From Siphonodentalium dalli (lineage: Eukaryota > Mollusca > Scaphopoda > Gadilida > Siphonodentaliidae), in assembly GCA_032622095.1 (NCBI GenBank), contig CP136064.1, positions 131,943,129-132,007,128 of the forward strand: a DNA stretch of 64,000 bases, read 5' to 3'. The notes beneath the pieces were generated by a model. It searched no databases and was not told the DNA's origin. It was given only the letters and a program-made list of their open reading frames with translations. Shown in pieces: positions 7,462 to 59,758 of the stretch. A program made the translations under genes and the position numbers. Each line of letters starts with the position of its first letter. Positions within the stretch are counted from its first letter, which is position 1.

Positions 7462-8125
7462 CTAGCTGGGTCCCGGTGTTGCTCGGGCACAGAATGAGTA
7501 AATTATCAGTTCCCCTTCCAGCCATTCATTTTAATTATTCGTCACCTGAGATAAAAAAAATCACCCATTACATTACTCTCTCTGGACAAAGTTACCTCTG
7601 TATTTAAAGTTGACAATAAATGCTATTTATTGCTAATTACTAGTGCAACTTTAAGTCACCTGAGGTCAACTGCATCTATTCCATGACATTTCCCGCGTCA
7701 AATTGCATCTGTGTTTATTCGTCCCCCTTTAAGTCATCTTATATCAAATGCACATATCCAATTATATTCCCCTGTTCAGGTGAACCCTATCTACCAAATT
7801 TCCTAAATCATTATACACATAGACTTCAGCCATGACCATATATAGCCACACTGGATATATCCATACAACAAGGCGTGACCAATCTAAGCGGTCATGATTC
7901 ACACCAGGTATTTCCCTGAAACCCACCATGACGATGTATCACTCGCTGTTTACCTATTCACCACATTCGTGGTTATATAGTCACTCCCCGTATACCTATT
8001 CATCTCACCATACAGTCACTCCATGTAAACCTACTCCCACCACCATGGCCAAAAAACCACTCAAGATATACAGATACACTCAACTTGACCATATGTATAG
8101 TCACTCCATGTATACACATTAACCT
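7462..8125 (-). mobile_element. Helitron-like 3' terminus with a short-period array
   Basis: Read on the minus strand the edge at 7462 is a GC-rich stem-loop (gcccgagcaacaccggg) followed about 8 nt later by CTAG and then T, the known Helitron 3' end layout (hairpin, CTRR, insertion before T). Rightward are degenerate units of about 55 bp built on 'tatagtcactccatgtatac' (about 7830-8125). The 5' end and any Rep/helicase gene are not seen, so a non-autonomous copy is inferred. Confidence 0.5.
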
Positions 8126-8214: not shown

Positions 8215-8944
8215 AATGACAATTCAAAATGGCCGCCATCAGAACAAAGTCTAGATTTTCGTTTACTGTTATATGTTGTTCTAAGACATTTGAATATTAT
8301 GCATTTCCGTACTTTCGAACGAATTGTGACAAGAGACACTATACACAGAACATATGTGGTAATTTAAAGTGAACCTGTTTGACATTTAACCCAATTTATG
8401 CCCAAAAATGACAAAAAACGCGAATTTTATAAATTATTGCGGTCTTAAAAGGCAGAAAGTGAAGTATGCCGGAAATATATCCTTCAAATAGTTTAGACAG
8501 TTGTGTCTAAATGTAATTTGTATTCTGATTCCAAAAAACAGTGTTGGCAACTCGACAAATAATTATTTCTGACATAGAATGACAATTCAAAATGGCCGCC
8601 ATCAGAACAAAGTCTGGATTTTCGTTTACTGTTATATGTTGTTCTAAGACGTTTGAATATTATGCAGTTCCGTACTTTCGAACGAATTGTGACAAGAGAC
8701 ACTATACAAAGAACATATGTGGTAATTTAAAGTGAACATGTTTGACATTTAACCCAATTTATGCCCAAAAATGAAGAAAAAAAACCCGAATTTTATAAAT
8801 TATTGCAGTCTTAAAAGGCAGAAAGTGAAGTATGCCGGAAATATATCCTTCAAATGGTTTAGACAGTTGTGTCTAAATGTAATTTGTATTCTGATTCCAA
8901 AAAAACAATGTTGGCAACTGGACAAATAATTATTTCTGACCTAA
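8215..8944. repeat. Two tandem units of about 365 bp (left arm of the HEEADTR element)
   Basis: Units start at 8215, 8578 and, truncated, 8945 with aatgacaattcaaaatggcc. They are nearly identical over their whole length. The same unit recurs inverted at about 10400-10832, so these units form the outer arms of the element around the decayed gene. Confidence 0.9.
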
Positions 8945-8964
8945 AATGACAATTCAAAATGGCC

Positions 8965-9095
8965 AATGCGACACAATTTGCCATCATATAGCCAAAAATG
9001 GTCACAAAAAAGCCTTAATTATTATTGCAGTCAGTTCCACAATTGCAGAGTAGTGTGCAGGGTAACTCTGATTTTCTGCATGTATACACCCACAT
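8965..9095. repeat. Inner inverted repeat, left copy
   Basis: The sequence from aatgcgacacaatttgccat to the tgcatgtataca block pairs with 10190-10322 in reverse complement. It contains the last codons of the HEEADTR gene (the Cys-rich tail) and the bases following them. Confidence 0.85.
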
Positions 9096-10190
9096 TTGGA
9101 ATGTGTTCTAGTGACATCATGGTTGGATCTAATTTACCATTTTCTTCTTTCCATCCCATTGTCGAAGGATCCGGTAATGTTTGCACAGGGATGGTTACTT
9201 GTTTCCAAACTAAAACCTGGTAGTTTGTTCTCAAAAGGTGGTAATGAAATGAGTCACTGGTTGGTGGAAGCTTTTCAGGAGATTCAGTCCGAGTGAACAT
9301 CCTGAATCTTGCATTGTTGAGTTTTGCATCGGAAACTCCATATAACTTGCGTACAAAATGTTCAGCACTTTCAATTGTTTCAGTGGATATTGCAATATTA
9401 CATATACCCTTTAAGAATTCACAACATTCCAGGTAAATATTCCTTGCGGATCGTTTAGACACCCCCATATATGAACGAAGTTGAATACACCATGTTAAAG
9501 CATGAAACGTGGGAATTGAGTTCAGAGCGTCGCTCGGTATTTGGGTGGCAATATCCCTAAATGGGTATAATTTTAGGGCTTTTGGAAGTTCCAGCCATCA
9601 TGAACACATCACAATCTGCAGGAAATTTGTCTAGGTAACCAAGCAATAACACCAAATCATCGACGTCCCTACTTACCACAATAACTTGTTTCAGATTGCA
9701 CCCCATGCTGACATCAAGTGAATGAAGGATAAGTCTAGTGTCAGCCTCTTCGTGATTAGACTCTAGCCCTTTCAAGTCTGTTCCATCTACCGAACAATCT
9801 ACTCTGCAATATTCTGTGACCCCCCTGCAATAACAACAGTAACACCTTCTGTTTTCGCTTTGGTAACAAGTTCTCGAAACAAGAAACCATTCAAATCGGA
9901 CTTGTTGTCAGACAACAAAATGAAACTTTTCCGATTTTGTGGGATGGGAACATCACGATTTGTTAATGTCCTTCGGATCAATGTACATCGCGACTTCTTC
10001 TCGATCTGTTGGCAGTCTTTATAGATTTATCTGAGTATCTGTCGAACACTACATCAATCCTGACATAGCCTTCGTCCTTCTTCAACACGCACACTGAGAA
10101 TACATCGGCCAAATCTCCAAATATATTTACCTTTTCTGGTTTATCAATGACGATACATGCATGGGGAGATGGTGTAACAGGGGTGTGTAA
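9013..10190 (-). pseudogene. Decayed HEEADTR/HALTxC gene, possible FEN1/PIN-like nuclease of a mobile element
   Basis: Reading right to left, in several frames, are: FGDLADVF; VRIDVVFDRYSDKSIK with RSRR; a spacer; LESNHEEADTRLILHSLD; VVSRDVDDLVLLLG; then SIPTFHALTWC, FVRKLYGV, LPPTSDSFHYHLLRTNYQ and, near 9013-9090, a tail CRKSELPCTLLCNCGTDC. From memory these are, in order, the signatures of a multicopy invertebrate protein group normally reading HEEADTR, SPDTDV, HALTGCDT and a C-terminal Cys-rich tail. The acidic motifs resemble the EAEA, D-x-D and GCDY blocks of FEN1/XPG nucleases; that functional link is my inference. The N-terminal part is absent and the frame is interrupted, so it is not active as it stands. 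Confidence 0.7.
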
Positions 10191-10832
10191 CAGCAAGGTG
10201 TACATGCAGAAAATAAGAGTTACCCTGCACACCACTCTGCAATTGGGGAACGGACTGCAATGATAAATAAGGCTTTTTATGACCATTTTTGGCTATATGA
10301 TGGCAATTTGTGTCGCATTGGGTGTTGATGAACCAGTTTCATAATATTACTGATGATTTTCGAATTTTTAACTGATTAAAATTTTAACTGATTAAAATGA
10401 ATTGTCATTTTAGGTCAGAAATAATTATTTGTCGAGTTGCCAACATTATTTTTTGAAATCAGATTACAAATTACATTTAGACACAACTGTCTAAACTATT
10501 TGAAGGATATATACGTTTCCAGCATATTTCACTTTCTGCCATTTAAGACCGTAATAATTTATAAAATTCGCGTTTTTGTCATTTTTTGGGCATACATGGG
10601 GTTAAATGTCAAACATGTTCACTTTAAATTACCACATATGTTCTGTGTATACTTCTTCTTGTTCCAATTCGTTCGAAAGTACGGAATACTCAATATTCGA
10701 ACGTCATATAGAGCAACACATAACAACAATCGTAAAGTTAGACTTTGTTTTGATGGCGGCCATTTTGAATTGCCATTTTTGACCAGAAATAATAATTTGT
10801 CAACTTGCCAACATTGGTTTTTGAAATCAGCA
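10190..10832. repeat. Right inverted arm of the HEEADTR element
   Basis: 10190-10322 is an inverted copy of 8965-9095. After about 75 bp of unpaired sequence, 10400-10832 is an inverted copy of the 365-bp unit plus part of a second. The retained gene fragment starts exactly where this arm ends. Confidence 0.88.
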
Positions 10833-10869
10833 TAAAAAATACCGTTAGAAACAATTCTCAAAAGCTTTG

Positions 10870-11762
10870 AAAGAAAAATGCCCGCACCTTTGTTTCTAGA
10901 AGCTTTTCAAGATTTTCGAACCTGACTTTGTTTATAAGATGACAGAGTATTTACAATTGTGGTGTAACACAAACTGAAAATAAAGAAGATAGAAGTTATA
11001 ATGGTAAGAGTGTGGACTGGCAGTAAACCAGTAAGGTAGTCTGGGGCTTTATTACACGATTTTTTAGTGTAGGCCAGCCTGCTTCACACATGACGGAACT
11101 ATTTGAGCACGAGCGTGTGAGACCAGTTACAATTTTGGCGGCATCGATGTGAATTCGGTCGAGTTTCTTCAGAAGATAATCAGGGGCATTTTTCCATATA
11201 ACATCAGTGTAATCTAATATTGGTAGAATATAGGCCTTGTATTGTTTATCAAGTGTTCTTCTGTCAAGCTTATATTTATATTTTCTGAGGATTGACAACC
11301 GGGGAGTAATGTGGTGATAGACTCAATGTGCGTGTTCCAGTTTAAGTTGCTTTGAATTGCAAGACCCGAGATGTTTATGCGACTCTATGAGTTCCACTTA
11401 TTTGTTTTGAAAAAGGACACTTAAGGGCATATTAATGGGGGTCAGAGAGAACAATATTGCTTTTGTTTTAATCGGATTGAAATTTACAAGACACTTACGT
11501 GCCCAATCATCAATCTTAATTAGGTCTTCATCTATATTTCTTTCTGACAGATCAATATCATAGGACATCGTCGTGAGACACGTGTCATCAGCATACATTC
11601 TAGTGACTGAGTTTAAATTTTCGGGTAGGCCGTTTATGTATACGAGGAATAGGAAGGTGCCAAGTATTGAGCCTTGAGGGACTCCAGCCGGGATAACTCT
11701 GAAGTTTGAACATGTGTCATTTATGAGAACTCTTTCTATTAGTGAGGTAATCATCTATCCTC
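10870..11762 (-). mobile_element. 5'-truncated non-LTR retrotransposon (CR1/Jockey-like LINE)
   Basis: Minus-strand pieces read RVLINDTCSNFRVIPAGVPQ then GSILG, RMYADDTCLT and WARKCLVNFNPIKTK. Further on are YILPILDYTDVIWKNAP, LLKKLDRIHIDAAKIVTGLT and AGWPTLKNR. VPQGS and YADD are the reverse transcriptase catalytic motifs; the thumb-like LDRIHIDAAKIVTG block is typical of CR1/Jockey-related LINEs. At least two frame changes are needed and everything before the finger domain is missing. The 5' break abuts the array at 11765. Confidence 0.88.
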
Positions 11763-11764
11763 TA

Positions 11765-12115
11765 TTCGGGCCATTGATCCCTTCCGGATATACATATACC
11801 CCGCACACGGCCACCATCCACTCCAGATTTGCATATACACCTCATCAATGACAATACAGCCATTCGATGTATACCCATACATCCCAGCCATCGTCGCATA
11901 ACAATTCCCCGTATACATTTACAACACATCCCACCATTACCACAGGCCACTCCCTGTATATCCATACTCCTCGCCAATGACCACCAAGCTATACACCAGA
12001 TATACAAATACACTTTAACCATGACCGTACATTCATTCCATATACTCCTATACACATTATCCATAACCATACAACCACTCCATATTTTTCCATACACCCA
12101 CCCATGAGCATAATG
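11765..12115. repeat. Degenerate tandem array, period about 55 bp
   Basis: Units carry phrases such as ccatgaccgta, cattccatatac and ccgtatacatttac. The same phrases form 7830-8125, so this looks like the other half of one array separated by the HEEADTR element and the LINE. Opposed open frames here are repeat artefacts. Confidence 0.7.
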
Positions 12116-15131: not shown

Positions 15132-16414
15132 TTGGTTCCAATTACCCTCTCCTGTAATTACCCTCTCCTGTAATTACCCTCTCCTGTAATGTAATTACCC
15201 TCTCCTGTAATTAACCTCTCCTGTAATTACCCTCTCCTGTAATTACCCTCTCCTGTAATGTAATTACCCTCTCCTGTAATTACCCTCTCCTGTAATTACC
15301 CTCTCCTGTAATTACCCTCTCCTGTAATGTAATTACCCTCTCCTGTAATTACCCTCTCCTGTAATGTAATTACCCTCTCCTGTAATGTAATTACCATCTC
15401 CTGTAATATCCCTCTCCTGTAATTACCCTATCCTGTAATTACCCTCTCCTGTAATGTAATTACCCTCTCCTGTAGTGTAATTACCCTCTCCTGTAATTTC
15501 CCTCTCCTGTAATTACCCTCTCCTGTAATGTAATTACCCTCTCCTGTAATGTAATTACCCTCTCCTGTAATTACCCTCTCCTGTAATTACCCTCTCCTGT
15601 AATTACCCTCTCCTGTAATGTAATTACCCTCTCCTGTAATGTAATTACCCTCTCCTGTAATGTAATTACCCTCTCCTGTAATTACCCTCTCCTGTAATGT
15701 AATTACCCTCTCCTGTAATTACCCTCTCCTGTAATGTAATTACCCTCTCCTGTAATTACCCTCTCCTGTAATGTAATTACCCTCTCCTGTAATTACCCTC
15801 TCCTGTAATTACCCTCTCCTGTAATTACCCTCTCCTGTAATTACCCTCTCCTGTAATGTAATTACCCTATCCTGTAATTTCCCTCTCCTGTAATTACCCT
15901 CTCCTGTAATTACCCTCTCCTGTGATGTAATTACCCTCTCCTGTAATTACCCTCTCCTGTAGTGTAATTACCCTCTCCTGTAATTTCCCTCTCCTGTAAT
16001 TACCCTCTCCTGTAATGTAATTACCCTCTCCTGTAATGTAATTACCCTCTCCTGTAATTACCCTCTCCTGTAATTACCCTCTCCTGTAATTACCCTCTCC
16101 TGTAATGTAATTACCCTCTCCTGTAATGTAATTACCCTCTCCAGTAATGTAATTACCCTCTCCTGTAATTACCCTCTCCTGTAATTACCCTCTCCTGTAA
16201 TGTAATTACCCTCTCCTGTAATTACCCTCTCCTGTAATTACCCTCTCCTGTAATGTAATTACCCTCTCCTGTAATTACCCTCTCCTGTAATTACCCTCTC
16301 CTGTAATTACCCTCTCCTGTAATTACCCTCTCCTGTAATTACTCTCTCCTGTAATGTAATTACCCTCTCCTGTAATTACCCTCTCCTGTAATTACCCTCT
16401 CCTGTAATTGGAAC
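15132..16414. repeat. Minisatellite of a 16-bp unit (attaccctctcctgta), roughly 70 copies
   Basis: The unit taattaccctctcctg repeats for about 1.27 kb, with a frequent 21-bp variant carrying an extra gtaat and a few point variants (accctatcc, accatctcc, tttccctc). The array is bounded by ttggttccaatta at 15132-15144 and taattggaac at 16405-16414, which are inverted complements. Similar variant blocks recur (around 15480-15660 and 15960-16120), pointing to segmental duplication within the array. Confidence 0.97.
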
Positions 16415-48000: not shown

Positions 48001-51000
48001 GCCTCTATTCCTTTAGTTTCTGACAATCGGCATTATTGTTAGCCTATTCTACCCACAACTGCATTTGAGTATGAAGAGTTACCCCATAGAACAAACTTTG
48101 GAAACTTTGGTTTTGCTGTGAGTGTGAATTAGAAATTGTCAGCGACTGCGTGGAATGAACATGCCCTAATGCTGAAGCTGGTGGTGTAACTGTGAGATTA
48201 GTACATGTAGTTGATGACAATGTTGAATTTCCAGTTGACGATAGGGTGGGTGTGGAACTTGCTGCTGTTGCTCGATTTTCAATATTTCCAGCAGGCATAG
48301 ACAGCAATGTTGAATTTTCCTTCTGTCTGTTTATAAACAGCTTTGAATAGTTATTGATGGAAGCCACATTCTTGTGTCCTGTTGTCTGCATGACATCCGT
48401 TGGCGGAACATTCTCATCCCTCAGTTTCTGAATACAATATTTCCTGGTGCTTGTGTATGGTAGTCGCGTTCTAGTTGAGGGCATTTTTATGTTATCAACT
48501 TCATAATTTTCCCAAGTTTGTTTATGCCAACATTTTGCTTGTTAAACCAGTTATCGCTCATCAGACAGAGGTATTGTCATTATAGCTAAATAAAAAAGGA
48601 TATTCTTTTTCTGAGAAACCAACCGGTCGCACTTTTGATGCATAGAGCATATTTATATCATCATTATCTACAGGATCTGCTGCGAACGGTTTGTTTCCAT
48701 TGATACATTTCATCTTCAGAATAATATGTGTTGTCACCATGGTCAGAACTTGTTGTAAAGTCATTCATTAGAGTATCATTTGAAATTAGAAATGTCCTCA
48801 GCAAGTTCAATAACTTCAATACAGGCACCAAATTCATTGTTTGCGTTGCTACTGGGTGGGAGTAGGGTCATTGTCCTGGCTAAAGACTTAACAGATTTGT
48901 GTAGATTGTGACTCCGAAGCATCAGCTTATGCAAAGTCGAACCCCTCAAGAAAATGAGATTCTATATCCTTGGAAGTCATTCCTGACATATCAACATCAC
49001 AATTCTGATTGTTGAGATCCATTATTAAATTTTCATCAGATTACGAATTACGTCGGAATAAAACTTTTAAAAGCAGACGAAAATACTTTTATTCATCTAT
49101 GTCTAGTGTCTTGCATGTGGGTAATATCCCAATATACATTGTGATGGCAGCCCATGACCGAAATGGTGTGGATTCAGCAACCAGTTTGCTTATCACTCCA
49201 TCCAGGCTTTCTCAAAAGACGGCTCATCACAAACAATAAGCGCGAAGGACAAAGAACTGGAGGGCACGATTGGCAACGTGTATAGAAAGGAGTTATCCTT
49301 CACTGACGTAAAGACGGTGAACACAATGTATAACTGTTCGGGTGAGTGTTTATAGTGGTTTTAGCATTTACATTTGAGCTTTTTCTGCATGTATATGTTG
49401 ATGTAATATAGGGATGGTGACTCAGTCCCTAATTTGGTTAACACCAACATTGCGGACGAGTTCATCAGATAGATATGTTCCCTGAAACGGAAGTTAAATT
49501 CTGAAACGTAAGGACAAACATATCAGACTTATATTATGCGTGACAATAATTGACCAGGTTCGTGTGTATATTTGTTAAACGTATTCCATTCTATACGAAG
49601 ACAGTTGGTTTAACCGTTACATGCAAATTGCTATTTTGTTGATGTGCCAACACTGTCATTTCCCGGATTCCCATTACAGCTACTCGACCACCATATGGAG
49701 TTGATGTTACCCGCGACAGAATATTCATCAATATTTATATTTAACGTTTTTATGTTTACCCATACCATGTATGGTAAACATAGTGTCGTTGTCCGGATTG
49801 ACCACTCGTCGTTCGTCCGTCCGTCCGTCCGTCTGTCCGTCCGTCTGTCCGTCCGTCTGTCCGTCCGTCTGTCCGTCCGTAGACACTTTACGTGTAATGC
49901 GATAACTCAAACATTTTTTATCTGATCGGAACCAAATTTTGTATATGGGGTTTTCAGCCCAAAATACAGATCGAGTTCGAATATGGGTTTGATCCAACTT
50001 TTTTGAACAGAGTTATGGCCCTTTTTCGACTTAGAATTAATTAATTCTGCCATAACTCAAACATTTTTTATGTTTACCCATACCATAGTATGGTAAACAT
50101 AGTGTCGTTGCCCGGATTGACCACTCGTCGTTCGTCCGTCTGTCTGTCTGTCTGTCTGTCCGTCTGTCTCTCCGTAGACACTTTACGAGTAATGCGATAA
50201 CTCAAACATTTTCTATCCGATCGAAACCAAATTTTGTATATGGGTTTCTCAGCCCAAAATACGGATCGAGTTCGAATTTGGGTTTGATCCGAGATTTTGT
50301 TACAGAGTTATGGCCCTTTTTTTACTTAGAATTCACGCATTCTGCCATAACTCGAACATTTTTTATCTGATTGGAACCAAATTTGGTATGTGAGTTTCAC
50401 AGCCCAAAATACAGATCGAGTTCGAATATGGGTTTGATCCGATTAATTTTAAAGGAGTTATGACCCTTTTTTGAGAAAAAAATTGAAAAATTGAATCGAT
50501 TTTTTTTAAAATTTATTTTTAACTTTTATAATAATAATAAAAAAAATGTCATTGACATTGTCATTTGTTTTCATTTAGATATTGATGATTATGATAAAAA
50601 GATTTCCAATGTGTCCCTTTAATTTTTTTAAATAAGTTAAAAAAAATTTAAAAACTAACACCATTATAACTCTGCCAAGGGTACCCCGAATCACCACACC
50701 AAATTTGATTAAATCGGTCCAAAATCTTGTGTTATGTACTGGTAAATCTGTTTGGAGCAACATTAAATCCAATTCACCAATTGCCTTTGGACTTATGCCA
50801 ATGTGCAAATAATCTGATACATAAGGCTATGGCATCTAATTTAAAATAAAGATTCAACAATAAACATCACATGCTATTAACAGTAGACATGGACATCTGT
50901 GCTGCTATATAATTGATATTAATGGGTCAGTGGTGAGATTGCTTATCTGTATACTAGGACACATTATTATTGTAAACTTAAATTGGACTCTCTTAACCCA

Positions 51001-57000: not shown

Positions 57001-59758
57001 TCTTGTCTGGAGTCTCTGCGGCCACTTTTTTTTCTTGTTAACAAGTGAATAAAATTAGAGGAGACCTTAAGGAAGAACATTAGTGGGGTGAAGTTAAGTC
57101 CTGGGGGGGTGCAGAGGTCGACCAATATCTCCTGGACTAATAGAACTATATGTGAAATGTGGTGGTAGGTAATTTTCATAATAATTTTTTTTGGTGTTAT
57201 GACTGAGATAAATCCGTTACATGCTATATCTTTGGACATTTTATATCAATACTGAATAAGTGGAACAATTAAATAAACATTATGCAGATGATAAACAATT
57301 TCAAACACGAGGTACATACGTTACAAATACGTTTATGTACTAAGCTCTAAAGTTCAATAATCGCTCTTTATTATGTACTCGTTACACCCCCAGTCTGAGT
57401 TTTTCACAGAGCAAAAACACGGAACTAGCTATTTGACCCGGAGCGTGGGAGGCAAGGAGTGGAGGGTTGTTCCTCTTGGTGAACAACTTAAGGGGGAGAC
57501 GCACGTTTTGCATACATCCAGCAAAAAATGCATCATATGTTCAATAAAGAATTTCTTTAAGATTTTCAGATATGATATCATGGTTATCTGAACTGCACTG
57601 TTCAAAAAGTCCTATATTACAGAAGTCCTTGGTAGTTGTAACGGAAAACATCAACATTTTAAATATTTTTCTTGCGATAAAAGTACAGTAAATGGGGCTA
57701 TCATATCCAACTAGTTGCCAGTTCTTAAATTAGTCGCTTGAACCAAATTTCTAAAAAGAGATTTTGAGAGATTTCATTGTGAAATATCAAGAAATTTTGG
57801 CAAAACGTGCGTGTGACTGTATGGGTGGTGTAACGAACTTGCATTATGCTGTTTTACATATTCACATTGTTAGCTCAACTTTACTTTGTAAAGTTTGAGC
57901 TATTGCTATGGCATGGTAACCGTCGTCCGTGTGTGTGTGTGTGTGTGTGTGTTGGTGCGTGTGTGCGTGATTCGTCAACAATTTCCTTTAGCACGGGCTA
58001 CAGGTCGTACCTTTGGTCGGATCATTATGAAATTTGTCATGGGTGTTGACATTGACATGTAGATGGGAACACTTCATTTTGAGGTCATTCGGCAAAAAAA
58101 CACGGCCGCCAGTGGCCATCTTGGATTTCAAAATTCAATCCATTAGCACGGGCAACAGCCCGGAGTGTTCGTCTGATCATCATGAAACTTGTCGTGGAAG
58201 TTAATATTGACATGTAGAGTAATTTTGGGGTCGTTCGGCCAAAAACATGACCGCCAGCAGCCATCTTGGATTTTACTCTTTGCATGACTAAATCCTTTGG
58301 CATGGGCTACAAGTCGTACCTTTGGTCGGATCATCATTAAATTTGCCACGGATGTTAACAATGACATGTAGATGGGAATGAGTCATTTTGGGGTCGTTCG
58401 GCCAAAAAACATGGCCGCCAGCAGCCATCTTGGATTTTAATCTTTGCATGACTAAATCCTTCGGCACAGGCTACAGATCGTATCTTTGGTCGGATCATTA
58501 TGAAATTTGTCATGGCTGTTGACATTGACATGTAGATGGGAACGAGTCATTTTGGAGTCATTCGGCCAAAAACATAGCCGGCAGCGGCCATCTTGGATTT
58601 CAAAATTCAACCCAGTAGCACGGGCTACAGGCCATACTGTTTGTCTGATCATCATGAAATTTGCCATGGATGTTAATATTGAGATGTAGATGGGAACGAG
58701 TCAATCCTTTGGCACTGGTTACAGAACCTACTGTTCATCTGATCATCATGAAATTTGTCATGGCTGTTAACATTGACAATCATATGGGACTTTGCATGAC
58801 TAAATCCTTTGGAACACCCTACAGTCCACTTCCCCCAAGTTCCCAACCGATCATCACCAAACTTCATATTAATCTTGATATTGATCTACTAGATGGAAGC
58901 TATCAAATGTTTTTGAATTTCATTGAAAAACATATTCACCAGCAACCATCTTGGATTTTACCTTATATATTTCTTCATGTTGATAATCTAGTATTACTTA
59001 GACCATTCAACTTTCCGCATTCCTAATCGCTCCATTGACTGTAACACATGAAATTATTCTCTTTCCAAGTTGAGCTACAGTGTCATTGACACTTTCATTG
59101 GAATGTGCAAAATGGAAATATCGCGATTTATCGAAGCAAAAGTTGCTGAAAATCATGTGTGTGTATATCGTATATAAATATTGGCTTCGTCCGCTATCAG
59201 ATTGTGTTGTCCCATCTGCATTGTTGCCCACGAATGAACTGTGCGTGTTCAACCAGCAGACATGCTCGTGTATACTTAACGGGACGATTAATTAAATTTG
59301 TTGCACTGGTTTGAGTATGAACTCGCTTGTGTTGTTGATTAGGAGTGTCTGTAGTCAAACACTAAATTGTGCGATAGCGGTTAGAGCGAATATATGCAGA
59401 TCACTGAGAGGGCTGACCCAAACTATAGCAGAAAGGCCGCGGTGAACAAATGTATATTTAAAACGTATTTACAGGGACGTGTCCAGAGTTTATCCGAACA
59501 TGAACATGATGTCGCATGGATTAAAGTAGAATTAAATGAATACGGAAGAAAAAATCCAACCAAGATGTCTAAATGACACCCAGTAATTTCCGGGTCTATC
59601 TTTTACAGAGAATTGTGAGAATATTCAGGACAGCTGGCAATGTTACATGTGGGCCAAACAAGGAGAGTGTGTGCGTAATCCAGATTTTATGCGAACACGA
59701 TGCATGCAGGCTTGTGGTCTTTGCGACAAACCGACGGAGGACAAAACTGAAAAGAATG
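17919..59758 (+). CDS. Astacin-family zinc metalloprotease with ShK domain (nine exons, 5' and 3' ends missing)
   Basis: Coding exons are 17919-18072, 18739-18838, 24971-25059, 25653-25773, 32994-33063, 43009-43212, 49206-49341, 51853-51969 and 59609-59758. All junctions are GT-AG and all phases agree, giving 380 residues. Order: signal-peptide tail ending VVHCQ, propeptide with LDMMLTPSQY, basic site RKKRK, catalytic domain from RWTGAELPYQF to MYNC, cysteine-rich linker, ShK domain. The zinc site HEMGHAIGLVHE, the Met-turn SVMHYG and the four conserved astacin cysteines (TCVRF, GCNS, GCRY, YNC) are all present, so the protease looks functional. Family knowledge: secreted zymogen endopeptidases activated by propeptide removal, with the propeptide aspartate acting as zinc switch. 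ShK tails are common in nematode NAS and molluscan astacins. Substrate is unknown. The start exon lies upstream of 17919 and was not found. Confidence 0.93.
18073..18738 (+). other. Astacin intron 1
   Basis: A 666-bp GT-AG intron between the signal-peptide and propeptide exons. No repeat or RNA recognised. Confidence 0.75.
18739..18838 (+). CDS. Astacin gene, propeptide exon
   Basis: Acceptor ttcacag, donor gtaaag at 18839. The phase joins the previous exon through a split Gly codon. It encodes VANKMMDPSGKILAELDM and then MLTPSQYNMLYHRP. The E-L-D-M-M-L-T-P-S-Q core matches the astacin propeptide pattern E-G-D-x-x-L-T-x-x-Q, in which the Asp ligates the catalytic zinc in the zymogen. The usual Gly before that Asp is Leu here. 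Confidence 0.88.
19547..19655 (+). mobile_element. tRNA-derived SINE-like fragment
   Basis: gccgtagccgaggtggttg resembles a tRNA-type A box. About 50 bp later gcgggttttcatgcttgatc sits where a B box (GGTTCGANTCC) is expected but is degraded. This spacing and the 'cgaggttggcgcgggtt' phrase resemble tRNA-headed SINEs. It lies in intron 2. Confidence 0.45.
20594..21577. mobile_element. Non-autonomous DNA element with about 200-bp terminal inverted repeats
   Basis: 20594-20794 and 21378-21577 are inverted copies, starting ggtcgggcacacatcc and ending ggatgtgtgcccgacc. They share phrases such as gagctacgtagac and caacgactcaccacggc. The 580-bp interior has no recognised coding sequence. Target-site duplication is not clear. 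Confidence 0.85.
22933..23148 (+). other. Unrecognised open frame inside the nested element
   Basis: A 71-codon frame starts MQRWDTPNTTKTEQLAAEMN and continues with a protein-like mix. No family recognised. It lies between the inner inverted ends and could be a fragment of an element protein or chance. Confidence 0.15.
24971..25059 (+). CDS. Astacin gene, activation site and N-terminus of mature protease
   Basis: Acceptor gacgttag, donor gttagt at 25060. It encodes SRKKRKAARLESLRWTG then AELPYQFVKNDF. RKKRK is a furin-type basic site placed just before the region matching the mature astacin N-terminus, where W-x-x-G-x-x-P-Y is conserved. It follows a 6.1-kb intron holding a nested transposon. 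Confidence 0.9.
25197..25406 (-). other. Unrecognised open frame inside astacin intron 3
   Basis: A 69-codon antisense frame, MLPYLDSLPGTGFQLFLN onward to LLKKIDIRMMAWNELYKT, fills about a third of a 593-bp intron. The residue mix looks protein-like. No family is recognised. A mobile-element fragment is the simplest reading. Confidence 0.2.
25653..25773 (+). CDS. Astacin gene, N-terminal catalytic subdomain exon
   Basis: Acceptor ctctttcag, donor gtgagt at 25774. It encodes DDREIYFMKLAMTEWEKYTC followed by VRFRPYREMDRNIVRIKNGN. The pattern A-M-x-x-W-E-x-x-T-C-V-R-F is typical of astacins. The Cys is the first cysteine of the long-range disulfide to the C-terminal YNC. Confidence 0.93.
26004..28792. 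mobile_element. Foldback element, 830-865-bp inverted arms around a 1.1-kb spacer
   Basis: 26004-26868 and 27963-28792 are inverted copies, from cacccccgtgtacgtggtat at the outer ends to cactcgagtagaccgtt at the inner ends. Two near-repeats of tatcgccaaaaccgag lie just inside each outer end. The right arm has some bases the left lacks (for example near 28110-28140). The spacer and arms carry frames but no recognised protein. It lies in astacin intron 4. Confidence 0.88.
28793..30180. other. Intronic sequence; unrecognised antisense frames
   Basis: Contains antisense frames at 29066-29308 (ending SITDIRGHIPSDSRSG) and 29595-29900 (with IFADDFFYYHPKPSTSG) with protein-like composition but no recognised family and no matching splice signals. 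No repeat copy was seen. Confidence 0.35.
30184..30494. repeat. Two small hairpins
   Basis: At about 30189-30266 the phrase acttaccaac recurs with its complement, forming overlapping inverted repeats. At 30402-30415 and 30481-30494 a perfect 14-bp inverted pair, cagtcggagttgtg and cacaactccgactg, encloses a gaacaacttgg/gttgttcca pairing. Confidence 0.75.
30625..30690 (+). repeat. Dispersed repeat with a partner at 59170-59240
   Basis: atattggcttcgcgcccact, gttgtcccat and a following cacgaacga phrase recur in order at about 59178-59240, diverged. No function visible. Confidence 0.5.
31405..31503 (+). repeat. Tandem duplication, about 49 bp
   Basis: The block gtagagttggcatagtgaca through gcacgggttagtcga occurs twice in direct succession (about 31405-31454 and 31454-31503), nearly identical. 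Confidence 0.9.
31779..31923. repeat. Near-perfect hairpin, 66-bp arms and 13-bp loop
   Basis: 31779-31844 is the reverse complement of 31858-31923 apart from a few mismatches, with loop gaacctttggcga. Arms include ttataaactgggg-type and taaattaggtctggacc sequence. The size fits a tiny foldback MITE in astacin intron 4. Confidence 0.93.
32994..33063 (+). CDS. Astacin gene, GCxSxxG-GC exon
   Basis: Acceptor gtttcag, donor gtaagt at 33064. After a split Gly codon it encodes CNSQLGMVGGIQELNLEP then PGCRY, matching the astacin segment G-C-x-S-x-x-G-x-x-G-G-x-Q-x-L-x-L-x-x-x-G-C. Both cysteines of the short disulfide are present. This is a very short 70-bp exon between introns of 7.2 and 9.9 kb. 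Confidence 0.93.
33950..34680. repeat. Diverged units of the 'ggttgctagg' dispersed repeat
   Basis: Phrases aaatggtgataacactatga, gacaacggttgctaggcaac and gactgatattatg recur within this stretch and, weakly, in 39340-39830. Two poly-G tracts occur at 34412-34424 and 34700-34711. No coding signal. Confidence 0.5.
35249..35480 (+). repeat. Dispersed repeat with 'gtagccagctttt' triplet, inverted partner at 40915-41365
   Basis: ggggtcattgtcacaaggct, three copies of gatcacatttgtagccagct and then tcggattccttatgtc match the reverse complement of 41365 down to 40915. The partner has about 200 bp of extra sequence between the two blocks. Confidence 0.88.
35925..36325 (+). repeat. Two direct diverged copies related to the 35365-35500 block
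   Basis: Both copies contain gtctactttcagagt, aatttaaagagcgttt, attatacata and gtgcgagttgaaatt, at about 35995-36140 and 36168-36317. The first also repeats the gattcct...ggtcgcgc phrase of 35370-35410. Confidence 0.75.
36774..38592. mobile_element. Candidate inverted-end element containing a degenerate tandem array
   Basis: taggacatgggaa with aatttcgtggccacgaa near 36775-36812 matches, inverted, the ends at about 38535-38592. Inside, 37440-38260 holds three to four degenerate units of about 150-200 bp with gggtgaatattta and caccctacaaaaccc, and two poly-G tracts (37079-37093, 37821-37831). Near 38340-38450 a segment ends in tatcctatcctatcctat, resembling a LINE or SINE tail. No protein recognised. 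Confidence 0.5.
38593..40914. other. Intron 5 sequence; weak internal duplication only
   Basis: 39340-39480 and 39660-39830 share cattgatcattataagatcg-type and agtaacggttac-type phrases and look like diverged direct copies. Around 40500-40800 two near-repeats contain cccatagggytcagtgttaaa. No exon found. Confidence 0.45.
40915..41365 (-). repeat. Inverted partner of the 35249-35480 repeat
   Basis: Three copies of agctggctacgaatgtgatc-like sequence at 41258-41335 and gacataaggaatccgacta near 40998 pair with 35249-35480. The interval 41020-41250 separates the two matching blocks and looks like an insertion, or a deletion in the other copy. Confidence 0.88.
41570..41900 (-). repeat. Inverted partner of the 4308-4655 repeat
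   Basis: Matches the reverse complement of 4308-4655. It includes a 17-G run at 41611-41627 where the other copy has only a few C, so the homopolymer has expanded in one copy or contracted in the other. Confidence 0.85.
42256..42284 (+). mobile_element. Helitron-like 3' terminus
   Basis: gcccggacgaagtcgggc forms a 5-bp-stem hairpin followed by acagcag, CTAG and a flanking T, the canonical Helitron 3' end. The left boundary is not defined; the body probably covers part of 41940-42255. No helicase gene is seen, so a short non-autonomous copy is inferred. It lies in astacin intron 5. Confidence 0.6.
43009..43212 (+). CDS. Astacin gene, zinc-binding active-site exon
   Basis: Acceptor gatgcag, donor gtaagt at 43213, phase 0 on both sides, 68 codons. 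It carries the extended zinc motif HEMGHAIGLVHE with the following NRDDHIDI, and the Met-turn SVMHYGIH near its end. The three His ligands, the catalytic Glu and the Met-turn Tyr are all in place. The open frame runs a few codons upstream and past the donor into intron, which is not coding evidence. Confidence 0.97.
43297..44375. repeat. Degenerate array of the 'ccgataactcaa...ttcgacttagaa' family
   Basis: Opens with cggattgaccactcatcgtt and a gtccgtgcgtccgtc tract, then repeats units with gagttatggcc-, cttttcgacttagaa- and ggtttccggatgataactca-type phrases. The same family forms 49755-50520. No coding signal. Confidence 0.75.
44985..47007 (-). mobile_element. CR1/Jockey-like LINE fragment split by an insertion
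   Basis: From right to left on the minus strand: FGNKLKLNDEKTEMNQTT and VHAFFDVNMSIST (47007-46840); then, after about 0.8 kb, HIETDVNNVCRACNYYLM, RNRKYLTLSATKSIIMSL and ITDALMRKMEKVQNCC (46022-45700); then LTFRAIGGTAPANIHELV and LKTHLFKLRTDS (to about 45440). This is the normal order of the LINE reverse transcriptase C-terminal half. The 3' side ends in a TA-rich tail near 44985. It is frameshifted and 5'-truncated. Confidence 0.82.
46022..46840. other. Insertion interrupting the LINE reverse transcriptase
   Basis: The reverse transcriptase reads NMSIST before this segment and HIETDVNN directly after it, which are adjacent in intact relatives, so the roughly 0.8 kb between was inserted later. 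The segment has no recognised gene. A short inverted ggttcaaccct lies near its right end. Confidence 0.6.
47008..48060 (-). repeat. 165-bp-period tail, same family as the arms of the 52-57 kb palindrome
   Basis: Begins agtccaggagatattggtcg and matches 52213-53340 in order: the gagactccagacaagatggc phrase, the ggtaccaca-like block and degenerate units of about 165 bp containing ccaaratggcggccaaaatgg. It runs directly into the 3' end of the Crypton-like coding remnant, so it probably is that element's downstream region. Confidence 0.8.
48044..48780 (-). pseudogene. Crypton-like tyrosine recombinase remnant
   Basis: Minus-strand pieces: DNDDINMLYASKV; then SDNWFNKQNVGINKLGKIMK; then LPYTSTRKYCIQKLRDENVP, PTDVMQTTGHKNVASINNYS and a Ser/Thr-rich tail to a stop at about 48044. 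R-K, G-H-K-N and the Tyr of NNY fit the C-terminal catalytic R, H and Y region of eukaryotic Crypton recombinases (the KCTD1/QRICH-like group), which excise and integrate DNA through the tyrosine. Most of the preceding catalytic domain is missing and the frame changes, so this is an inactive, internally deleted copy. It lies in astacin intron 6. Confidence 0.75.
48925..49025 (-). pseudogene. Possible N-terminal piece of the Crypton-like gene
   Basis: A minus-strand frame beginning MDLNNQNCDVDMSGMTSKDI and continuing ESHFLEGFDFA sits where the start of the Crypton-like gene would be expected. Position is the main support. The stretch between it and 48780 is out of frame. Confidence 0.3.
49206..49341 (+). 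CDS. Astacin gene, C-terminal catalytic subdomain exon
   Basis: Acceptor ctccatccag, donor gtgagt at 49342. It encodes AFSKDGSSQTISAKDKELEG and continues TIGNVYRKELSFTDVKTVNT, MYNCS. The A-F-S-x-x-G start after the Met-turn and the final M-Y-N-C match the end of the astacin fold. The Cys closes the long disulfide. The exon sits about 185 bp from the Crypton-like remnant. Confidence 0.93.
49745..50530. repeat. Second array of the 'gaccactcgtcgttcgtccg' family
   Basis: Two to three direct units each hold ccataccat..tggtaaacatag, ggattgaccactcgtcgttc, a gtccgtctgtccgtc tract, gcgataactcaaacatttt and cagatcgagttcgaatatgg. Frames such as Ser-Val-Arg-Leu runs are artefacts of the GTCC tract. It lies in astacin intron 7. 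Confidence 0.85.
50531..51852 (+). other. Rest of astacin intron 7
   Basis: Contains low-complexity A/T sequence near 50490-50660 and no recognised gene or structured repeat. Confidence 0.5.
51853..51969 (+). CDS. Astacin gene, cysteine-rich linker exon
   Basis: Acceptor ttatttcag, donor gtaaga at 51970. In the phase set by the previous exon it encodes HCSSKIRCAGGGYVDQTC then KCICPDGSSDCEVGKELNYI, with six cysteines. The C-A-G-G-G-Y-V-D-x-x-C-x-C-x-C-P pattern resembles the short EGF-like region found directly after the catalytic domain in many invertebrate astacins. The frame is fixed by phase continuity on both sides. Confidence 0.88.
   Translation, partial: AIVRRKSDAQAEATLIRPASAFARMDHQIVKLAKSLII
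52213..57137. mobile_element. Palindromic (foldback) element of about 4.9 kb
   Basis: 52213-53660 and 55675-57137 are inverted copies: outer ends agtccaggagatattgg/ccaatatctcctggact, inner parts near 53630 and 55700 (gcgccgaatag/ctattcggcgc). The pairing continues weakly inward (54170-54360 with 55135-55310), leaving a loop of about 0.7 kb near 54400-55070. The arms contain four or five degenerate units of about 165 bp built on atccaagatggcggccaaaa. Arm frames are conserved between arms only because the DNA is. No transposase is recognised; a non-autonomous element related to the Crypton-like one is inferred. Confidence 0.85.
54400..55070 (-). other. Loop of the palindrome; protein-like antisense pieces
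   Basis: Minus-strand frames read VSMWAVLFKRMSGTVVHLFH (54776-54961) and, further on, LMQENGRIGDVIKKSLGVPT with CVELNARAHQRNIPLDVLRV (about 54590-54750). Composition looks protein-like but I recognise no family. These are candidates for a decayed element gene. Confidence 0.3.
57138..57870. other. Intron 8 sequence without recognised gene
   Basis: A 72-codon frame at 57373 (with GKEWRVVPLGEQLKGETHVL) has no recognised family. Part of its DNA (ctatttg...gttgttcc) resembles the hairpin region near 30440, which argues for a repeat. Confidence 0.35.
57872..58980. repeat. Array of about 155-bp units behind a 30-bp hairpin
   Basis: A hairpin agctcaactttac...gtaaagtttgagct at 57872-57901 is followed by (GT)n and then about seven units starting near 57992, 58144, 58297, 58464, 58617, 58710 and 58810. 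Each unit has ggcacgggctacaggtcg, ggtcggatcatcatgaaatt, tgacatgtagatggga and, in the full ones, ggccgccagcagccatcttg. The last units lack the ccatcttgg part except the end. Related to 1610-2145. Confidence 0.88.
59609..59758 (+). CDS. Astacin gene, ShK-domain exon
   Basis: Acceptor cttttacag, probable donor gtgaga at 59759. It encodes ENCENIQDSWQCYMWAKQ and continues GECVRNPDFMRTRCMQACGL, CDKPTED. The spacing C-x(8)-C-x3-W-A-x3-G-E-C-x2-N-P-x-F-M-x3-C-x3-C-G-x-C is a classic six-cysteine ShK (ShKT) domain. If the donor is not used the same frame stays open about 23 more codons to a TGA near 59822, so this could also be the last exon. An AATAAA lies near 59991. Confidence 0.92.

Follow-up and report, generated by a model that had tools for sequence, protein, structure and literature searches.

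The window analyzed here is a 64,000-nucleotide stretch of the genome of the scaphopod Siphonodentalium dalli (GenBank contig CP136064.1, positions 131,943,129 to 132,007,128 of the forward strand). It carries a gene with a HEEADTR motif at about 9031–10193 on the minus strand, which is frameshifted and flanked on both sides by inverted repeats. HEEADTR, VVSRDVDDLVLL, FHALTWC, and LPPTSD..HLLRTNYQ follow one another in minus-strand order between 9034 and 9820. A first-pass annotation of the window had described a decayed minus-strand gene with its motifs in this order, and this is borne out, though the motifs are spread over more than one frame. The same annotation assigned these motifs to a large uncharacterised group of invertebrate proteins. 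Inside the window, a single stop-to-stop frame reaches 170 amino acids or more; it has 188 amino acids and lies at 9031–9597. Using tblastn, residues 663–1046 of P0001, a full-length relative of 1090 residues described below, were matched at window positions 10193–9079 in four stretches with 31–38% identity. A Cys-rich tail, listed as the last motif of the order, is mostly missing from the window copy. FHALTWC, also on that list, reads FHALTGCDSTS in several other copies and is, to judge from these sequences, itself damage.

The repeats around the gene form two nested sets. The outer arms are built from units of 363–367 nt, with two direct copies on the left and one full plus one partial copy in inverse orientation on the right. 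Left unit 1 (363 nt; 8215–8577, plus strand) recurs in the outer arms of other copies that we fetched from the genome, and unit 2 (8578–8943, plus strand) is 96% identical to it. The full right unit (10411–10777, minus strand) is 88% identical to unit 1, and the partial, outermost one (10784–10863, minus strand) has its counterpart in the outer arms of other copies. The inner arms, at 8963–9087 (plus strand) and 10198–10321 (minus strand), are inverted relative to each other and 92% identical over 125 nt. The left inner arm consists of spacer and the 3′ end of the gene with its last codons. The right inner arm is the 3′ coding tail of the gene, inverted, and in our reading it is what remains of a second gene copy that was divergent from the first. 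This inverted tail meets the gene body near 10180, at a 9-nt direct repeat, GTGTAACAG, present at 10172–10180 and 10185–10193. From the sequence and the alignment of the arms, 10172–10193 is read as a deletion junction at which the start of the nuclease-like part is joined to the inverted tail. The window copy contains one nearly whole gene part and just 69 nt from the tail of the second gene copy.

This layout agrees with the first-pass description of the right arm as an inverted copy of the last codons of the gene. The arm had also been described as joined to the middle of the gene. The direct join is there, and the junction is the start of the nuclease-like part, which lies mid-protein in the full-length relative. 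The first-pass annotation did not regard the inverted repeat as an ordinary one lying beyond the gene; a terminal inverted repeat of that ordinary sort is present there as well. The right terminus, TTCGAACCTGACTT, lies at 10915–10928 on the minus strand and differs from the family terminus by one mismatch. A left terminus was not found within the window, and that of the window copy is lost.

Beside the right end of the element, at 10931–11790 on the minus strand, lies a remnant of a non-LTR retrotransposon reverse transcriptase, named from its motifs (PQGSILGTFLFLVYINGLPENLNS..MYADDT). Similar repeats of ~42 nt, of the TATAGTCACTCCATGTATACC type, flank the element and this remnant at 7976–8116 and 11855–11875, as if the two were placed inside an older array; a 42-nt repeat array is also seen at 12008–12097. 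Further along the window, a 16-nt unit, AATTACCCTCTCCTGT, forms a long array of about 71 copies at 15140–16409. The stretches 49810–50472 and 57984–58703 hold arrays built on CGTCCGTCTGTC, in units of 295 and 150 nt, and on a 164-nt unit.

We searched the genome (2.2 Gb in nine contigs) for related copies. A DNA search gave at least 68 matches, often several per place (best 40 of 290 candidates scored), and a 77-residue protein query gave at least 150 matches on all nine contigs (best 150 of 981 scored). Given these matches across the genome, the window feature is more than chance. Twenty-four loci with long flanks were fetched (L009–L028 and L039–L042); they are the places that ranked highest among the matches and not a random sample. 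When their outer ends were aligned, TAGTCAGGTTCGAA was common to 27 arms, after which the flanks diverge. It is inverted at both ends, and the family termini read TAGTCAGG..CCTGACTA. Both ends were located in 11 of the 24 loci. Nine of these 11 copies have a target site duplication (TSD) of exactly 3 bp, or 8 of 10 distinct copies, since L016 and L015 are duplicates (TTA, ATT, TAA, AAA, AGG, ATA, CAT, and ATA). A 2-bp duplication occurs in 1 of the 11 and a duplication of 4–8 bp in none, and L019 and L039 have both ends and no TSD. As controls, ends paired across copies matched over 3 bp in 3 of 90 cases, and shifted positions did so in 0, 0, 1, and 0 of 10. Three candidates for a second end with three mismatches (L012, L017, and L018) were excluded before the TSDs were counted; none has a 3-bp TSD, and a lax count that includes them gives 8 of 13. 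The terminal 15-mer occurs in 309 exact copies in the genome, versus 2 for the reversed pattern. Shared termini with differing flanks, 3-bp TSDs, and the 309 exact terminal 15-mers together identify the family as a mobile transposon, a possibility that the first-pass annotation had raised. A retrotransposon-like truncation as the origin of copies with one gene is ruled out by L009 and L015, which have two termini and a TSD. Separately, the region C3:76592580-76620051 contains family termini in two pairs, one nested in the other, with spacings of about 13 and 27 kb; these are perhaps long or nested elements.

A 108-residue query from L024 led to an open frame of 1174 amino acids in L043, whose reading of 1090 residues from the first ATG is P0001. 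A long conserved part takes up its first 600 residues and precedes the portion matching the window gene. We call this upstream part transposase-like on the basis of its place and its conservation, and the assignment is putative. In Pfam, P0001 matched no model above the cut-off and no transposase model, and the upstream open frame of L043 likewise gave nothing above the cut-off. L024 has an upstream part that is 44% identical to residues 1–422 of P0001 and is broken by two stops. It also has the family left terminus, with one mismatch, and holds the upstream and nuclease-like parts in one element. Upstream pieces of the family type (at least 73% identity) occur in at least 10 places among the matches listed (best 150 of 1274), compared with at least 150 nuclease matches listed, so the upstream part is absent from most copies seen. 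On contigs C1 and C2, the exact HEEADTR codon motif lies downstream in the same orientation, no more than 4.5 kb away, in 12 of 26 places with an upstream part, versus elsewhere nearby in 0 of 26, which indicates that the two parts commonly go together. This count omits two second pieces of places already counted (one on each contig), and the 14 places with no exact motif downstream include L024. Genome-wide, the HEEADTR codon motif has 367 exact occurrences, versus 0 for the reversed pattern. Long single genes elsewhere, that of L043 included, could be host genes. Repeated frames of 1467 amino acids were also seen, for example at C5:41244751, C6:182218968, C7:148353033, and C1:221488289, and part of them is 25% identical to the L024 upstream piece; their equal length suggests a young, possibly active family of relatives.

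With a probability of about 0.7, we read the feature in the window as a decayed, non-autonomous, palindromic derivative of an AcademX-like transposon that would have been moved in trans, the link to AcademX being drawn from anatomy and published description. In Academ proteins, an XPG-type nuclease is accompanied by a Cys-rich finger. AcademX, a lineage of the Academ superfamily (Kojima; Repbase), has terminal inverted repeats, as does the window family in TAGTCAGGTTCGAA. An excerpt of PMC10045372 gives TSDs of 3 or 4 bp for AcademX and of 9 or 10 bp for AcademH, which its author ties to nuclease and helicase, respectively. TSDs of 3 bp are thus common to AcademX and the window family, and the AcademX nuclease of that excerpt would correspond to the nuclease-like part of the family, which we assigned from the order of its motifs. 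Academ is listed among the DDD/E superfamilies in a portion of PMC9587614, and an extract of PMC10294476 describes Academ elements as abundant in bivalve molluscs, with a mean length of 5565 bp. Excerpts of PMC8290104 and PMC10799480 gave nothing further on the nuclease. Unlike AcademX, the window copy and most of the fetched copies have no transposase-like part; many form palindromes, and repeats of 363 nt lie within their ends. Given the fuller relatives with both transposase-like and nuclease-like parts, the element is probably of a kind already described rather than a novel one. The first-pass suggestion of a little-described transposon type is fair in its wording, but AcademX has been described already. 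The copies also resemble foldback-like elements with long inverted repeats, such as Galileo, in that both have long inverted arms with internal direct repeats; unlike in those elements, coding sequence is included in the inverted arms of the window family, whose terminus and TSD length are its own.

Two other placements can be considered. It is possible, though we would not favor it, that the HEEADTR genes of this genome belong for the most part to a single transposase-nuclease fusion lineage, which would form its own superfamily beside Academ and would repeatedly yield palindromic elements with two divergent nuclease genes and no transposase, spread in trans. Somewhat less probable is the same anatomy in a different superfamily, of the Harbinger or EnSpm/CACTA type, both of which share with our family a TSD of 3 bp. 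Harbinger TSDs are of the type TWA, while only 2 of the 8 TSDs here are TTA or TAA and the others lie beyond that type. EnSpm/CACTA termini read CACTA, which the family termini do not, and P0001 lacks a Pfam match to any transposase.

The reading as an AcademX-like derivative includes the palindrome, and the other copies allowed us to ask how it arose. Among the 150 protein matches listed, 28 pairs of neighbors lie less than 4 kb apart, where about 0.04 are expected; 27 are divergent, 1 is tandem, and none is convergent. A second gene piece is inverted relative to the first in 14 of the 24 fetched loci (L013, L019–L023, L025–L028, and L039–L042). In eight of these loci (L020, L021, L025–L028, L039, and L040), the second copy breaks off at gene position 885, and an end common to 8 of 14 implies one rearrangement that was copied and spread. 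In the remaining six, the end differs from 885, through later deletion or separate events. The insertion of two complete copies head-to-head, which the first-pass annotation had offered as one origin, would give the divergent orientation of 27 of the 28 close pairs listed. We nevertheless consider it improbable. No element terminus was found at the center of any of the 14 palindromic loci, in searches allowing up to three and, in a second search, up to two mismatches. Six loci (L013, L020, L025–L027, and L042) have a single pair of outer ends and a single TSD enclosing the whole palindrome, and the end at position 885 is shared. L019 and L039 also have both ends, without a TSD. The inverted duplication offered as the other origin fares better: derivation of the inverted arm from an internal rearrangement of the element is supported, and the window copy is best read as such a palindrome minus its center.

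Next is the identity of the HEEADTR part, for which kinship to FEN1/XPG nucleases is likely as judged from its motifs. The acidic residues of P0001 (687, 730, 826/827, 850/852, and 911) have the same order and similar spacing as those of Pyrococcus furiosus FEN1 (27, 80, 152/154, 173/175, and 236). A further likeness is a G-K-K stretch after the last acidic motif; unlike FEN1/XPG, P0001 has a long C-terminal extension with a Cys-rich end. A chain of acidic motifs, written after seeing both proteins, matches P0001 and 20 of 24 archaeal FEN1 frames and has no match among 20000 shuffles. Nor does it match any of 43 further open frames longer than 200 amino acids, drawn from the window together with the first 42 loci and including decayed frames of the family. 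A first, stricter version of the pattern had matched 2 of the 24 FEN1 frames before it was loosened, and these 24 include three with an internal stop (L068, L078, and L087). Aligning against archaeal FEN1 with hhalign placed the DxD and GxD motifs in register, with a score that was reached by 31 of 150 column shuffles; global mode aligned unrelated ends, and hhalign found no significant profile-profile similarity to FEN1. Neither P0001 nor profile A1 found a match among PDB sequences. With Pfam, the three window pieces searched separately gave one weak match, to NYN, at an E value of 0.18, below the cut-off; NYN is a PIN-like domain. The first-pass assignment of the acidic blocks to FEN1/XPG agrees with their order and similar spacing, but the profile and PDB searches returned nothing significant in its favor. 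In viral contigs, no relative was found with the P0001 query; with the L041 frame as query, one stretch matched a pattern and none was confirmed. The HEEADTR codon pattern occurs in 10 viral contigs, where neither P0001 nor the L041 frame had a significant tblastn match (best E value 0.15). The string HEEADTR was not found in the literature searched.

We then compared substitutions across 40 aligned gene stretches, omitting CpG sites, alignment columns in which fewer than 15 copies were represented, and variants in two or three copies. Substitutions private to one copy fall on codon positions 1, 2, and 3 in 123, 132, and 129 cases, and those common to at least four copies in 22, 19, and 23. 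This even spread indicates that the nuclease gene is a passenger in this family, and no purifying selection on the nuclease is seen in the sampled copies. In three palindromic copies (L027, L039, and L040), EVD replaces DVD in the DxD motif. These observations bear on the first-pass idea that the family moves through its own FEN-like nuclease, with no DDD/E transposase, which we rate marginally below head-to-head insertion. Such movement would fit the persistence of nuclease codons in mobile copies that have mostly lost the upstream part (10 places versus 150 nuclease matches, among those listed). Against it are the even substitutions, the EVD variants, and the long upstream part in L024 and L043. 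The fixed 3-bp TSD is also more like DDD/E transposases, which usually give such a duplication. The transposase-like part of the fuller copies, taken with the lack of purifying selection on the nuclease codons, leaves mobility via the nuclease unsupported. Least probable is a non-mobile host gene family with a local inverted duplication, which would suit the invertebrate protein group named in the first-pass annotation and the long intact frame of 1090 residues in L043 but not the 309 exact termini, the 3-bp TSDs, or the matches on all nine contigs.

Under the preferred reading, an AcademX-like element moved in trans, the history of the window copy would be as follows. L043, a full-length relative, encodes a single long protein that combines a transposase-like part with a FEN/XPG-like nuclease part and has a Cys-rich end. 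Rearranged derivatives would have lost the transposase-like part and duplicated their left half in inverse orientation, perhaps during interrupted repair. The resulting palindrome would run from terminus through 363-nt repeats and gene tail to the divergent gene copies, then through gene tail and repeats to the other terminus. A transposase from an autonomous relative, probably acting in trans, would cut at the termini and insert the element with a 3-bp stagger. In autonomous elements, the nuclease part would most likely trim or resolve DNA ends. The window copy would later have lost the palindrome center along with almost the whole right gene copy, apparently via a short direct repeat, as well as its left terminus. 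Loss of the center would explain why a coding tail now forms an inverted arm that adjoins the gene body.

In this way, an unusual inverted tail becomes a readable history, in which a coding half was duplicated in inverse orientation, the palindrome spread, and its center was lost in the window. The analysis also suggests that many of the HEEADTR-type genes of this genome may belong to transposons with transposase-like and nuclease-like parts. If true, this would aid the annotation of large invertebrate genomes and would offer a concrete test of the role of the nuclease.
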